From Massilia violaceinigra (GTDB taxonomy: Bacteria > Pseudomonadota > Gammaproteobacteria > Burkholderiales > Burkholderiaceae_D), in assembly GCF_002752675.1 (NCBI RefSeq), contig NZ_CP024608.1:4712001-4776000 (forward strand): a DNA stretch of 64,000 nt, in the 5' to 3' direction. The notes below the pieces were generated by a model. The model was not told where the DNA came from and did not search any database. It was given only the letters and a program-made list of their open reading frames with translations. A program made the position numbers and the translations under genes. This document shows, one piece after another, positions 35,006 to 38,306 of the stretch (positions within the stretch are counted from its first letter, which is position 1; each line of letters begins with the position of its first letter).

Positions 35006-36283
35006 TTAGTCGTCGCCGCCTTTGAGCATCCACACATACTTCATGTTCATCCAGGCCGCCACCGGCTTGCCGTTCTCCGTGCCAGGCTTGAACTGGCACT
35101 TCATGATCCCGGCGCGCGCCGCTTCGTCGAGCAGCGCATGTCCGCTCGAGGCGGCGATGCGCGAGGCGGTGACACGTCCGGTATCGCCGACCTTGAAGGC
35201 GAGTGTGACTGTGCCGGTGTGTTCGGCCTTGAACGACGCTGCCGGCCAGACTGGCTTGGCGCAGCTGGCAAAGTCGACGACTGGCGCAACCTTGGCCAGC
35301 GCGGGCGTCACGGCCGCCCGGTCGTTGGCGGCGTGTGCGTAAAGGCTGAAGCAGGCGGCAGCCAGTCCCAGTGCCGGCAAGGATGCTTTCCAGTCGAGCG
35401 CCTGGCGGCCGGGCTTGACCAGCCGCCGCACGCGCGTCACCAGCTCACCGCCATTGGCCGCGATTGCCAGGTGGTGCGAGGAAAACTGCAAGCGCTCCAG
35501 CTCCGACAAGGCGTGCGCCAGCCGGCGCGGTTCGCCCAGATGGCGTGCCGCCAGGTCGTCGGCGATCTGTTCGCGTTCGGTGCGGATGCGGCCCGAAATC
35601 CACCACACGGCGGGGTGATAGAAGAGCAGGATCTCGACCACATTCTGGCCCAGGTTGACCAGGTAGTCGAAGCGCCGCACGTGCGCCATTTCGTGCGCCA
35701 GCAGCGCTTCGAGCAGCTCGGGCGGCATGCCGGTCATCAGCGAGGCCGGCACCAGCACCACGGGACGCAGCCAGCCGATCGTCAGCGGGCTGTCCAGGTT
35801 CTCGACAACGCGCACGCGCACGGCACGTGTGATGCCGAAGGCGCTTGCCATGCGCCCGGCGCGCGCCTGCCATTCGGCGCCGGCCAGCGGTGCCTGGCTG
35901 GCGTGGCGTATCCATGCCAGTCCGGCCGCCATGCGCAGCGCCAGCAGTGCCGCGCACACCGACCAGAAGCCGACGATCCACAGCAACTGCTCCTGCAGCC
36001 AGCCGGCGAGGCTGGCGTCATCGGCGCGCGCGCCGGCCATCATCTGGTCGGCAAAGCGCAGGTGCGCCGCGCTGGCGTTTGCGTCCTGCAGGCGCAGCGT
36101 CAATTCGGCGGCGGGCCACAGCACGCAGGCCAGCAGCGCCACGCAGGCCACGTTGTAGCGGTATTCGGGCCGGGTGTTGCGCATCAGGGCCAGTACGGCG
36201 GCGCTGGTGCAGCCGATCAGCAAGCCTTGCCAGGTGAAGTGGAGCAGGGTCCAGCCGATGCTGTCGATGAGGGACGCCGTCAT
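35006..36283 (-). CDS. BlaR1-like M56 membrane metalloprotease with C-terminal TonB-like domain
   Basis: About 425 residues. N-terminal hydrophobic helices, then an M56 peptidase domain with the zinc motif HEMAH at 197-201 and a downstream EREQIADD. Another hydrophobic segment (LPALGLAAACFSLYAHA, near 320) leads to a periplasmic C-terminal TonB-like domain (SCAKPVWPA ... SSGHALLDEAAR ... CQF) in place of the penicillin-binding sensor of BlaR1. By analogy, a periplasmic signal should trigger cleavage that inactivates the adjacent BlaI-family repressor. The start overlaps blaI by 4 bases (ATGA); the frame is open upstream but only inside blaI. Confidence 0.88.
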   Translation of the reverse strand: MTASLIDSIGWTLLHFTWQGLLIGCTSAAVLALMRNTRPEYRYNVACVALLACVLWPAAELTLRLQDANASAAHLRFADQMMAGARADDASLAGWLQEQLLWIVGFWSVCAALLALRMAAGLAWIRHASQAPLAGAEWQARAGRMASAFGITRAVRVRVVENLDSPLTIGWLRPVVLVPASLMTGMPPELLEALLAHEMAHVRRFDYLVNLGQNVVEILLFYHPAVWWISGRIRTEREQIADDLAARHLGEPRRLAHALSELERLQFSSHHLAIAANGGELVTRVRRLVKPGRQALDWKASLPALGLAAACFSLYAHAANDRAAVTPALAKVAPVVDFASCAKPVWPAASFKAEHTGTVTLAFKVGDTGRVTASRIAASSGHALLDEAARAGIMKCQFKPGTENGKPVAAWMNMKYVWMLKGGDD

Positions 36284-36663
36284 TTGTCTTCTTCCTTGAG
36301 CATGTTTTCGATCTCTTCGCGCTCTTTTTTGCTGATGCCGCTGCGCAGGGCCGCCATGACCAGCGCCTTGGCCGAGCCGGAGAAGGCTTTCTGGATCAGG
36401 TCCTTGAGCAGGTTCGTTTGCAGCGAATCCTGGGCTTGCGCGGGCGCATAGACGTGCGAGCGTTCGCTTTCGTCGCGGATCAGCAAACCCTTGGTATGCA
36501 TGATCTGCATCAGGCGCAGCACCGTCGCATAGGTCACGTCGGGGCGCTCCATCAGGATCGCCTGGTGCACTTGCTTGGCGGTCGCCGCGCCGAGTGGCCA
36601 CAGGGTTTGCAGCAGATCGAGTTCGGCCGCTGTCGGCTTGGGCGGGGCAGGGAGTTTGGACAT
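36280..36663 (-). CDS. BlaI/MecI-family transcriptional repressor
   Basis: 127-residue winged-helix repressor: ELDLLQTLWPLGAATAKQVH is the recognition region and VTYATVLRLMQIMHTKGLL the wing. The C-terminal dimerisation helix ends KKEREEIENMLKEE. First gene of the blaI-M56 operon, coupled by ATGA. Palindromes TAGACT-N4-TGTCTA and TAGACA-N4-TGTCTA lie 43 and 119 bases upstream of its start, so autoregulation is likely. Confidence 0.9.
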   Translation of the reverse strand: MSKLPAPPKPTAAELDLLQTLWPLGAATAKQVHQAILMERPDVTYATVLRLMQIMHTKGLLIRDESERSHVYAPAQAQDSLQTNLLKDLIQKAFSGSAKALVMAALRSGISKKEREEIENMLKEEDK

Positions 36664-36705
36664 GGTGCGCCGTTTGTGTAAGGGTAGATGCTAGGTTAGC
36701 GCATC

Positions 36706-36721
36706 TAGACTTTCGTGTCTA
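36706..36721. promoter_or_regulatory. BlaI-type operator O1
   Basis: TAGACT-TTCG-TGTCTA, one mismatch from the perfect palindrome seen three more times in the locus. Placed 43 bases upstream of the blaI start, a position suited to repress the blaI-M56 operon. Confidence 0.7.
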
Positions 36722-36781
36722 ACGAAAAAACCCGGAGCTTTAAGGAATAGGGGGCGCCCAGTTGCGCATGTGGGATAAAAA

Positions 36782-36797
36782 TAGACATCATTGTCTA
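36782..36797. promoter_or_regulatory. BlaI-type operator O2
   Basis: Perfect palindrome TAGACA-TCAT-TGTCTA; with flanking bases the symmetry extends to AAAATAGACA/TGTCTATTTT (36778-36801). It ends 13 bases before the ATG of the frameshifted small membrane gene on the plus strand. Confidence 0.75.
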
Positions 36798-36810
36798 TTT
36801 TAGGGGCGTC

Positions 36811-37079
36811 ATGGATATCTGGATGGCTGGATCATCGCCATCGCCGGCCTGACCTATGGGCTGGCGATTCTCGTCACGCGAGGTACTTTTGCGGGATGGA
36901 CCGGCGGCTGCGGCGATTTCGGCATGCGCTGCGTGAGTCAGGGCGTGATCGTGCTGGGCGTCGGATGCCTGGCGGGCGCGATACTCGCGGGGAGCCTGGC
37001 CGCTGTGATTACAGCTTCCACACGTAATCGATGCCGGCCCAGCTTTCGACCGGCTTGCCCTTGGCGCTGGCGGCGGTGA
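36811..37079 (+). pseudogene. Small membrane protein with an apparent single-base frameshift
   Basis: An ATG at 36811 sits 5 bases after GGGG and directly behind operator O2, but its frame stops after 15 codons. One base over, the frame continues as a convincing membrane protein: GWIIAIAGLTYGLAILVTR, a Gly/Cys-rich loop (WTGGCGDFGMRC), then a second helix VIVLGVGCLAGAILAGSLAA. Adding one G to the GG run near 36821 would join them. Either a recent frameshift mutation or an assembly error. Without repair only a weak CTG start (36819) is available. The 3' end overlaps the convergent TonB-domain gene. Confidence 0.4.
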
Positions 37080-37404
37080 ACTTGCACAGTTTGATCGCAT
37101 TCCGGGCGGCGTCGTCGAGCGCGACGTGGCCGCTCGATTTTTTCACCTTGCTGTCGACAACATCTCCGCTGGCGCCGATCAGGTAAGCCAGTTTCACCGT
37201 GCCGGCATGTTTGGCGGCGCGCGCCTCGGCCGGGTAGACCGGTTTGGTGCAGGAAGTCAGGTCGGCGACGGCGTGGGCTTTCTCGCCCTTGGCCGGCGTG
37301 GCGTGCGCAGCGCCGGCAACGCAGCCGGCGGCGAGGGCAAACAGGGCCAGGCAGCGTGTCAGGCGGGCCGAAATGACCGGGGTCGAAGTTGGGGATGGGG
37401 TCAT
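37009..37404 (-). CDS. Secreted TonB C-terminal-domain protein of the BlaI locus
   Basis: About 131 residues: a signal peptide (LALFALAAGCVAGAAHA) followed by a single TonB-like domain (SCTKPVYPAEARAAKHAGTV ... SSGHVALDDAAR ... CKF ... YVWKL). By hand alignment about 30 of 60 residues match the C-terminal domain of the neighbouring M56 protein, including both cysteines. There is no N-terminal anchor or Pro-rich spacer, so it is not a classical TonB. The start at 37404 is chosen from AAGGAG six bases upstream. Operator O3 lies 67 bases upstream. Confidence 0.8.
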   Translation of the reverse strand: MTPSPTSTPVISARLTRCLALFALAAGCVAGAAHATPAKGEKAHAVADLTSCTKPVYPAEARAAKHAGTVKLAYLIGASGDVVDSKVKKSSGHVALDDAARNAIKLCKFTAASAKGKPVESWAGIDYVWKL

Positions 37405-37471
37405 GCAATCTCCTTGGTTGGCGTCGTGCGCCATGGTTTGGGCGGGTGCCTGATTTATAGATTAATCTGTC

Positions 37472-37487
37472 TAGACAGAGTTGTCTA
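37472..37487. promoter_or_regulatory. BlaI-type operator O3
   Basis: Perfect palindrome TAGACA-GAGT-TGTCTA in the divergent region between the secreted TonB-domain gene and the SIMPL gene, nearer to the former's promoter side. Confidence 0.75.
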
Positions 37488-37524
37488 TAACTTTTTTCGC
37501 CCTGTTTTAAATGCATAATTGTTG

Positions 37525-37549
37525 TAGACAGTACTGTCTACATTGTCTA
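37525..37549. promoter_or_regulatory. BlaI-type operator O4 plus an extra half-site
   Basis: Perfect palindrome TAGACA-GTAC-TGTCTA at 37525-37540, followed by another TGTCTA half at 37544-37549. The palindrome ends 49 bases before the SIMPL-protein start. Confidence 0.75.
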
Positions 37550-37589
37550 TTCTGGCGTTTTCAACATCAGATTAACGTCCGGAGAAACC

Positions 37590-38306
37590 ATGCTCAAAAC
37601 GATTGCCGCCGTTGGCGCACTGACCTTGCTGCCCGTGGCCGCGCAGGCTGCCGGCTTGCCCGACTATCCATTCATCCATGTCAGCGGCATGGGTACCACG
37701 ACTGCGATGCCCGACCTGGGGCAGATCGATTTCGAGATCAGCGCCTTCGACGCCGACCCTGCCGTGGCTGTGGGTGTGGTGCAGACGCGCGCCACCGAAA
37801 TCCGCGCGGCGATGGAGCAGGCGGGCGTGCCGCTGGAGGATGTGGAGGTGCGCGATGTGCGCAAGGACTTCCGCAAGCCGGACCCGAATGCGGCGCCAGG
37901 ACCGGTGCAGTACGATATCCGCGCCGGGGTGCGCATCAACGTGCGCGACCTGACCAAATGGCGCGGCGCTGCGGCGCCGTTGCTGAACATGCCGAACCTG
38001 GACGGCTTCATGACGGTGTTCGATACCACCCAGCGCGAAAAGATCGAGATGGAACTGGCTACCGATGCGATCAAGATCGCGCGGCGCAAGGCGGAGGGGA
38101 TTGCGGTGGGGCTGGGACGCAAGCTGGGGCCCGCGAGTGCGGTCAGTACGGGAGATCTGAAGAACCTGACGCGGGCGATGGGGCTGGCCCCGAACGAGAC
38201 GAATTACCGCTCGTCGCCGCAGACCGGCATGGACAAGGCCGATGTGCTGACCGTGATGGCGCTCAAGTTCGCGCAGCCGGTCGATGTGATTTATCGCTTC
38301 AAATAA
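37590..38306 (+). CDS. SIMPL-domain (DUF541) periplasmic protein
   Basis: 238 residues with a signal peptide ending AAQAAG. The mature protein has the SIMPL pattern: FIHVSGMGTTTAMPDLGQID at the start, alternating strands, DAIKIARRKAEGIAVGLGRK near 165-185 and a final strand ALKFAQPVDVIYRFK. Family members are envelope proteins linked to stress resistance (E. coli YggE) but their action is poorly known. CCGGAG precedes the ATG. Operator O4 just upstream puts it under the local BlaI-family repressor. Confidence 0.85.
   Translation: MLKTIAAVGALTLLPVAAQAAGLPDYPFIHVSGMGTTTAMPDLGQIDFEISAFDADPAVAVGVVQTRATEIRAAMEQAGVPLEDVEVRDVRKDFRKPDPNAAPGPVQYDIRAGVRINVRDLTKWRGAAAPLLNMPNLDGFMTVFDTTQREKIEMELATDAIKIARRKAEGIAVGLGRKLGPASAVSTGDLKNLTRAMGLAPNETNYRSSPQTGMDKADVLTVMALKFAQPVDVIYRFK

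Follow-up and report, generated by a model that had tools for sequence, protein, structure and literature searches.

A BlaI-M56 locus of Massilia violaceinigra with a TonB-type sensor domain and an operator that overlaps promoter-like boxes

Known BlaI-M56 systems and the Massilia violaceinigra locus

In the BlaR1-BlaI and MecR1-MecI systems of Staphylococcus and Bacillus, a Penicillinase_R repressor is encoded beside an M56 protease, and dyad operators lie before the regulator genes and their targets. According to the available excerpt of a published account (PMC7593790), BlaR1 and MecR1 work through proteolysis, and their sensors resemble class D beta-lactamases. BlaI_0696 of Clostridium thermocellum, as described in part of its source paper (PMC8457756), binds a motif with inverted GTCTAT repeats, as tested by electrophoretic mobility shift assay (EMSA). 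Here we describe a related locus within a 64,000-nucleotide stretch of Massilia violaceinigra (the window; contig NZ_CP024608.1, positions 4,712,001 to 4,776,000 of the forward strand), in which a blaI-type gene, an M56 protease gene, a gene for a stand-alone TonB_C protein, and a SIMPL gene share one palindromic operator. Judging from sequence, half-sites of this operator appear to serve as the -35 boxes of the blaI, tonB_C, and SIMPL promoters, and the locus probably forms an autoregulated BlaI-M56 switch (probability roughly 0.78).

Compared with BlaR1-BlaI and MecR1-MecI, a TonB_C domain here replaces the penicillin-binding sensor, no beta-lactamase or penicillin-binding protein (PBP) is among the targets found, and the operator, TAGA-N8-TCTA, has halves that coincide with promoter boxes. 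Since the sensor and the targets, two defining features of the beta-lactam systems, both differ, we file the system as a BlaI-M56 variant, which by analogy should work like BlaR1-BlaI. The window half-site, GTCTA, agrees with the BlaI_0696 motif (half-sites GTCTAT/GACTAT), and paired dyads and a small regulon including the repressor's own operon are further likenesses. The spacing differs, being five between the GTCTAT repeats (orientation not stated) in the excerpt of that paper (PMC8457756) versus six between the GTCTA cores here, and the excerpt mentions no TonB-type sensor. Among the titles and abstract openings that searches of the open-access literature listed, none describes a BlaI-M56 system with a TonB-type sensor or with TonB-dependent receptors.

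The repressor, BlaI-A (36280..36663 in window coordinates, minus strand), has 127 amino acids (aa) and matches Pfam Penicillinase_R at 4.1e-22 (79.1 bits versus a cut-off of 22.6). The end of its gene overlaps by 4 bp the start of the M56 gene (35006..36283, minus strand), which encodes a BlaR1-type, multi-helix membrane metalloprotease of 425 aa (Peptidase_M56, 1.2e-22, 80.9 bits versus a cut-off of 31) with a C-terminal TonB_C domain (7e-14). The zinc motif HEMAH (HExxH) occupies residues 197-201 (35681..35695, minus strand), with H197, E198, and H201 invariant in all 19 aligned orthologues, and the TonB_C sensor domain, delimited by Pfam, the orthologue alignment, and the structure model, spans residues 343-416 (35036..35257, minus strand). 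Farther along are the gene for the 131-aa stand-alone TonB_C protein (37009..37404, minus strand; TonB_C, 1.5e-17) and, arranged divergently from it, the gene for a 238-aa SIMPL (DUF541) protein (37590..38306, plus strand; Pfam SIMPL, 3.6e-19). Both products are predicted to be periplasmic; assignments of signal peptides and topology are from visual inspection. The original prediction, made from the letters of the window, had named a BlaI-family repressor, an M56 protein with a TonB-like domain, a SIMPL protein, and a soluble TonB-domain protein, and the Pfam matches bear out all four.

The operator, its conservation, and promoter-like boxes

Four copies of the palindrome TAGACA-N4-TGTCTA had been claimed for the locus, and all are present: three exact, namely the blaI-distal O2 (36782..36797), O3b (37472..37487), and O4 (37525..37540), and one with a single mismatch, the blaI-proximal O1 (36706..36721). 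An additional copy with two mismatches, O3a (37458..37473), shares 2 bases with O3b, and its deviant half coincides with a -10-like box. At ≤2 mismatches the window holds five matches, compared with a mean of 0.40 and a maximum of 3 in shuffled sequence, and none of 100 shuffles reached five. In the 7.53-Mb genome the exact form occurs three times, always at this locus and not at many unrelated promoters. Allowing ≤1 mismatch yields 6 sites (reversed control, 4), and allowing ≤2 mismatches yields 61 (control, 135). Because the control exceeds the pattern at ≤2 mismatches, isolated weak copies are uninformative and were ignored. We attribute to chance a one-mismatch site at G000:C1:4260396, where a frame that looks unrelated begins.

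Of 60 genomes, 20 (M. violaceinigra included) have a BlaI match; the exact palindrome was searched for in 28, comprising those 20 and 8 of the 40 without BlaI. Exact copies were present in 18 of the 20 genomes with BlaI and in 0 of the 8 without, giving 39 exact sites versus 2 for the reversed control; G006 (48% complete) and G021 have one-mismatch sites only. As placed from their surroundings, 37 of the 39 precede blaI, SIMPL, TonB_C, or TonB-dependent receptor genes, frequently between a divergent pair. The other two belong, by Pfam domains, to a penicillin-amidase family gene in G013 (L119:3751-6189), with the exact operator before it, and to a MacB-like permease gene in G019 (L043:7529-9400), which lies ~2.4 kb from blaI and is preceded by one exact and one one-mismatch operator.

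A wider set of loci was gathered by a search with the 19 aligned M56 proteins, and the best 80 of 387 confirmed loci were kept; they come from Massilia, Duganella, Janthinobacterium, Rugamonas, Pseudoduganella, Undibacterium, Lysobacter, and metagenome-assembled genomes (MAGs). blaI precedes M56 in 67 of these, and every one of the 67 blaI genes has the same or a one-mismatch site before it. The operator, predicted to be shared within the locus, is confined there in its exact form in M. violaceinigra and is conserved upstream of blaI in relatives. The strict core TAGA-N8-TCTA occurs within 260 bp upstream of 58 of the 67 (control, 0/67), and the remaining nine have the full palindrome with one mismatch. 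A strict site also lies upstream of M56 in 12 of the other 13 loci; the remaining one, L233, is truncated by a contig end. Strict sites number 149 in the 52,800 bases upstream of or around blaI, compared with 21 (control pattern, 11) in 792,754 flanking bases. Of 86 distances between neighboring strict sites, 62 are 14 bp; the other spacings (43, 53-57, 67-69, and 76-77 bp) do not share one helical phase, and DNA looping is not claimed. Similar operators also stand before blaI-M56 in three loci (L244, L250, and L257) of Lysobacter, a genus of Gammaproteobacteria. In a class-wide sample the tiled pattern was found in 3 of 369 genomes: M. violaceinigra, the sole member of its family in the sample, G316, and G416.

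Predicted promoters overlap these sites. The blaI promoter (36693..36721, minus strand), found by pattern match, would consist of a -35 box TAGACA (36716-36721, one half of O1), a 17-bp spacer, and a -10-like TAACCT (36693-36698). The tonB_C promoter (37459..37487, minus strand), proposed from a pattern match and a seven-genome alignment, would have TAGACA at 37482-37487 and, after 17 bp, a -10-like TAATCT (37459-37464). For SIMPL (37525..37553, plus strand), pattern match, alignment, and a general promoter scan all point to TAGACA, 17 bp, and TATTCT. The pattern derived from these three promoters, TAGACA-N17-TANNCT, has five matches in the genome: the three themselves, an orphan M56 gene described below (M56-B), and G000:C1:5312787. 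Its control has none on one strand and one on the other. A looser form, TAGACA (≤1 mismatch)-N17-TANNNT with an A/T among NNN, is found before 60 of the 67 blaI genes and 12 of 12 orphan M56 genes, while spacers of 13-16 and 18-21 bp give 0-2 matches in these sets. When the A/T condition is dropped, 65 of 67 blaI genes match, the 17-bp pattern being missing from the Lysobacter loci L250 and L257. This arrangement would account for the 14-bp tiling and for the one deviant half-site, which coincides with the -10 box. This overlap of promoter and operator is an addition to the original prediction.

That prediction had placed an operator before every transcription unit of the locus, which holds for blaI-M56, the TonB_C gene, and the SIMPL gene and fails for a small membrane-protein frame (36822..37079, plus strand). 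From the in-frame TAG upstream to residue 35 the frame has no ATG, GTG, or TTG, leaving its first 34 codons startless (an internal ATG at 36924 would give 51 aa), and it stops short of the C-terminus common to L035, L037, and L039. On these two grounds we read it as a probable remnant rather than a regulated gene; alternatively, its broken state may reflect a frameshift error in the assembly. O2, at 36782, was considered as its promoter and set aside, given the startless frame and three relatives (L047, L048, and L049) that have no match to the frame and retain two blaI-side operators. Site pairs 74-77 bp apart occur upstream of blaI in seven relatives, these three together with L035, L036, L037, and L040, and O2 is better read as a distal operator of blaI.

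The TonB-type sensor and the proposed switch

The AlphaFold model of M56 matches BlaR1 (8exq) and, at its C-terminus, TonB domains solved together with their receptors, 9dc4_T (1.5 Å over 82 columns; with TbpA) and 6i97_D (2.0 Å over 88 columns; with FoxA); these fold matches count in favor of the switch proposed below. The model of the soluble TonB_C protein (mean pLDDT 78.3) matches the same TonB C-terminal domain structures, and this protein and the M56 sensor region are 44% identical over 117 residues, from which we take the secreted protein to be a copy of the sensor domain. The likeness to the TonB energy transducer lies in the fold of the C-terminal domain, which is here fused behind a protease or free, the rest of TonB being absent. 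Cys341, just before TonB_C, and Cys396, inside it, are invariant in all 19 M56 orthologues, and the equivalent pair is present in 12 of 12 aligned soluble TonB_C proteins that we chose from 25 stand-alone TonB_C frames, the window's own among them. One of those 25 frames (L237) is an M56 protein itself and two (L205 and L231) are doubtful reads. The former, from Undibacterium amnicola (L237:6001-7770), seems by eye to carry two tandem TonB_C-like domains.

In the switch that we propose, BlaI dimers would bind TAGA-N8-TCTA dyads in which the -35 hexamer TAGACA is embedded, joined in tiled sites by the -10 hexamer TATTCT or TAATCT, and would thereby silence blaI-M56 and the TonB_C and SIMPL genes jointly. 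M56 would span the inner membrane, its zinc-protease domain lying in the cytoplasm and its TonB-type sensor in the periplasm; on engagement of the sensor by its ligand, the protease would inactivate BlaI and the regulon would open. The secreted copy of the sensor, produced in the on-state, probably competes for the same ligand, which would provide negative feedback or block the ligand.

The invariant cysteines allow another reading, in which a disulfide joins them and the signal is periplasmic redox or oxidative stress, SIMPL being a protective effector. The sole NCBIfam match of the SIMPL protein is to "oxidative stress defense protein," at 46.6 of 249 bits and far below the curated cut-off, and the cysteine pair may be purely structural; we regard redox sensing as distinctly improbable.

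The locus might instead be an ordinary beta-lactam or wall-damage switch, in which a cytoplasmic muropeptide releases BlaI and TonB_C merely positions the protein near the wall. In B. licheniformis, the excerpted source reports, a peptidoglycan dipeptide destabilizes BlaI-operator complexes (PMC3305447), and the exact operator before the penicillin-amidase family gene of G013 and the M23 domains of two other M56 proteins in M. violaceinigra would also suit such a switch. On the other side, Pfam detects no transpeptidase or class D domain in the window M56, where TonB_C takes the place of the sensor, whereas another BlaI-M56 pair of the genome has one. Nor does it detect a beta-lactamase, resistant PBP, or wall enzyme among the operator-flanked genes blaI, M56, TonB_C, and SIMPL. 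We consider the wall-damage switch unlikely. Since a separate M56 with a transpeptidase-type sensor exists elsewhere in the genome, a beta-lactam signal is unlikely here, and the earlier suggestion that the signal is not a beta-lactam is retained, from the domain evidence, as likely.

Several observations weigh against the autoregulated switch with operators built into its promoters. The general promoter scan reported the SIMPL promoter only (1 found, 0.4 expected), leaving those of blaI and tonB_C unreported. Among 18 upstream regions of SIMPL in relatives, the promoter spacer is 17 bp in 4, 18 bp in 4, and 14 bp in 1; in others the operator lies closer to the start codon, and L184, L195, L213, and L215 have none in the last 120 bp. 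In G019, which is outside the 67-gene set, blaI has no exact or one-mismatch site directly upstream. SIMPL occurs in the examined flanks of just 24 of the 58 A-type loci, and the counts, which come from mutually related genomes, cannot be treated as independent trials. The M56 model matches Staphylococcus aureus BlaR1 (8exq; Foldseek E value, 1.2e-6) only loosely (TM 0.43, root mean square deviation [rmsd] 12.8 Å over 381 columns) and is itself of moderate confidence (mean pLDDT 74.6, pTM 0.57). For BlaI_0696, the EMSA difference, obtained with single repeats, is called modest by its authors in the excerpt (PMC8457756).

TonB-dependent receptors and the other BlaI-M56 genes of the genome

Membership of TonB-dependent receptors in the regulon of some relatives is a further addition to the original prediction. 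In G001, G003, and G009 an exact operator lies at or just before a receptor start (the G001 match has an internal TAG), in L206 three operators are followed by a TonB_C-receptor pair, and in L228 and L230 the gene order is blaI-M56-TonB_C-SIMPL-receptor. A search of the 80 loci (up to about 13 kb each) with the N-terminal part of one receptor (E ≤1e-5) gave a match in 10, of which 7 were among the 58 A-type and 3 among the 22 B-type loci. The 12 matches lie between 2,988 and 9,028, and four of them (L228, L229, L230, and L232) represent divergent receptors, with identities of only 27-29%. Ten receptors (from L115, L116, L117, L206, L213, L251, L095, and L097 and two from L228) were scanned with Pfam; Plug and barrel are present, and no N-terminal signaling domain was matched. 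No sigma/anti-sigma pair was seen among the genes identified at operators, no sigma-factor search having been made around the receptors.

A tentative extension, which we hold to be unlikely, is that the TonB-type sensor of M56 recognizes the TonB boxes of TonB-dependent receptors in the outer membrane. A receptor loaded with ligand would then signal to the inner-membrane protease and from there to the cytoplasmic repressor. The free TonB_C protein would be induced as a competitor, masking TonB boxes and damping both uptake and signaling; a soluble TonB domain can inhibit TonB-dependent uptake. Such a route would resemble receptor-based cell-surface signaling (TonB-dependent transporter, anti-sigma factor, and extracytoplasmic function [ECF] sigma factor; PMC7593790, in excerpt) in that an inner-membrane regulator uses its periplasmic domain to read an outer-membrane receptor, with proteolysis as the switch. 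It would differ in using a repressor and an M56 protease instead of sigma and anti-sigma factors and in the lack of a signaling-domain match in the 10 scanned receptors. Against it, 51 of the 58 A-type loci have no receptor match, no receptor lies beside the window operators, and the M. violaceinigra pairs with M23 domains show that linkage to a receptor does not require a TonB_C sensor.

Those pairs touch on another possibility, that the receptors are central, BlaI-M56 being a generic nutrient-uptake switch in which the TonB_C identity of the sensor is incidental. In M. violaceinigra three of six receptor matches (E ≤1e-60) have an M56 gene within 12 kb, and receptors of one subfamily stand directly behind two M56 genes whose sensors are M23, not TonB_C; receptors are also found behind M56-B-type genes in L251, L255, and L258. 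Still, with a receptor match in only 7 of 58 A-type loci and no receptor among the genes adjoining the window operators, we find the nutrient-uptake switch doubtful. The two M23-type BlaI-M56 pairs, each with its receptor, are at L095:3325-7780 and L097:3281-7444; the L095 receptor is followed, at the edge of that stretch, by a frame that by eye resembles a class D beta-lactamase.

The genome has six BlaI and six M56 matches in total, the M56 genes having TonB_C, M23, transpeptidase-type, and other C-termini. The pair with the transpeptidase-type (BlaR-like) sensor is at L096:1004-4510, next to a frame that by eye resembles a beta-lactamase-family serine hydrolase. One repressor gene, blaI-B (G000:C1:3822601-3822975, L055, at 3.82 Mb), has no adjacent M56 gene that we could see, and M56-B (G000:C1:1666324-1668249, L068:2325-4250, at 1.67 Mb) has no BlaI gene directly adjacent, the nearest, 3 kb on, having its own M56. 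These two genes are 2.16 Mb apart, and one site of each is nearly identical (TAGATAATTTATTCTA and TAGATATTTTATTCTA). A search of 19 genomes (G006 left out) found both in the same 13 and neither in the same 6; where both occur, they are apart in 11 genomes and adjacent in 2. We read blaI-B and M56-B as one pair that was split by rearrangement. Its operator is similar to the A-type operator, and insulation of the A and B operators is not claimed: the two operators differ in the half that coincides with the -10-like box, and an A site with one mismatch is present at M56-B.

The six M56 C-termini suggest that BlaR1-BlaI represents a general architecture for envelope sensing, in which sensor domains can be exchanged. 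The window offers a sequence-defined regulon, with five sites and three predicted promoters, in which to test a TonB-domain sensor, and the rule TAGACA, 17 bp, and TATTCT within tiled TAGA-N8-TCTA dyads has enough specificity for such switches to be found by pattern in the genome of M. violaceinigra. If the sensor does read TonB boxes, the locus would represent outer-membrane-to-gene signaling without sigma and anti-sigma factors, and receptors would control genes by a route not found in the titles and abstract openings searched.

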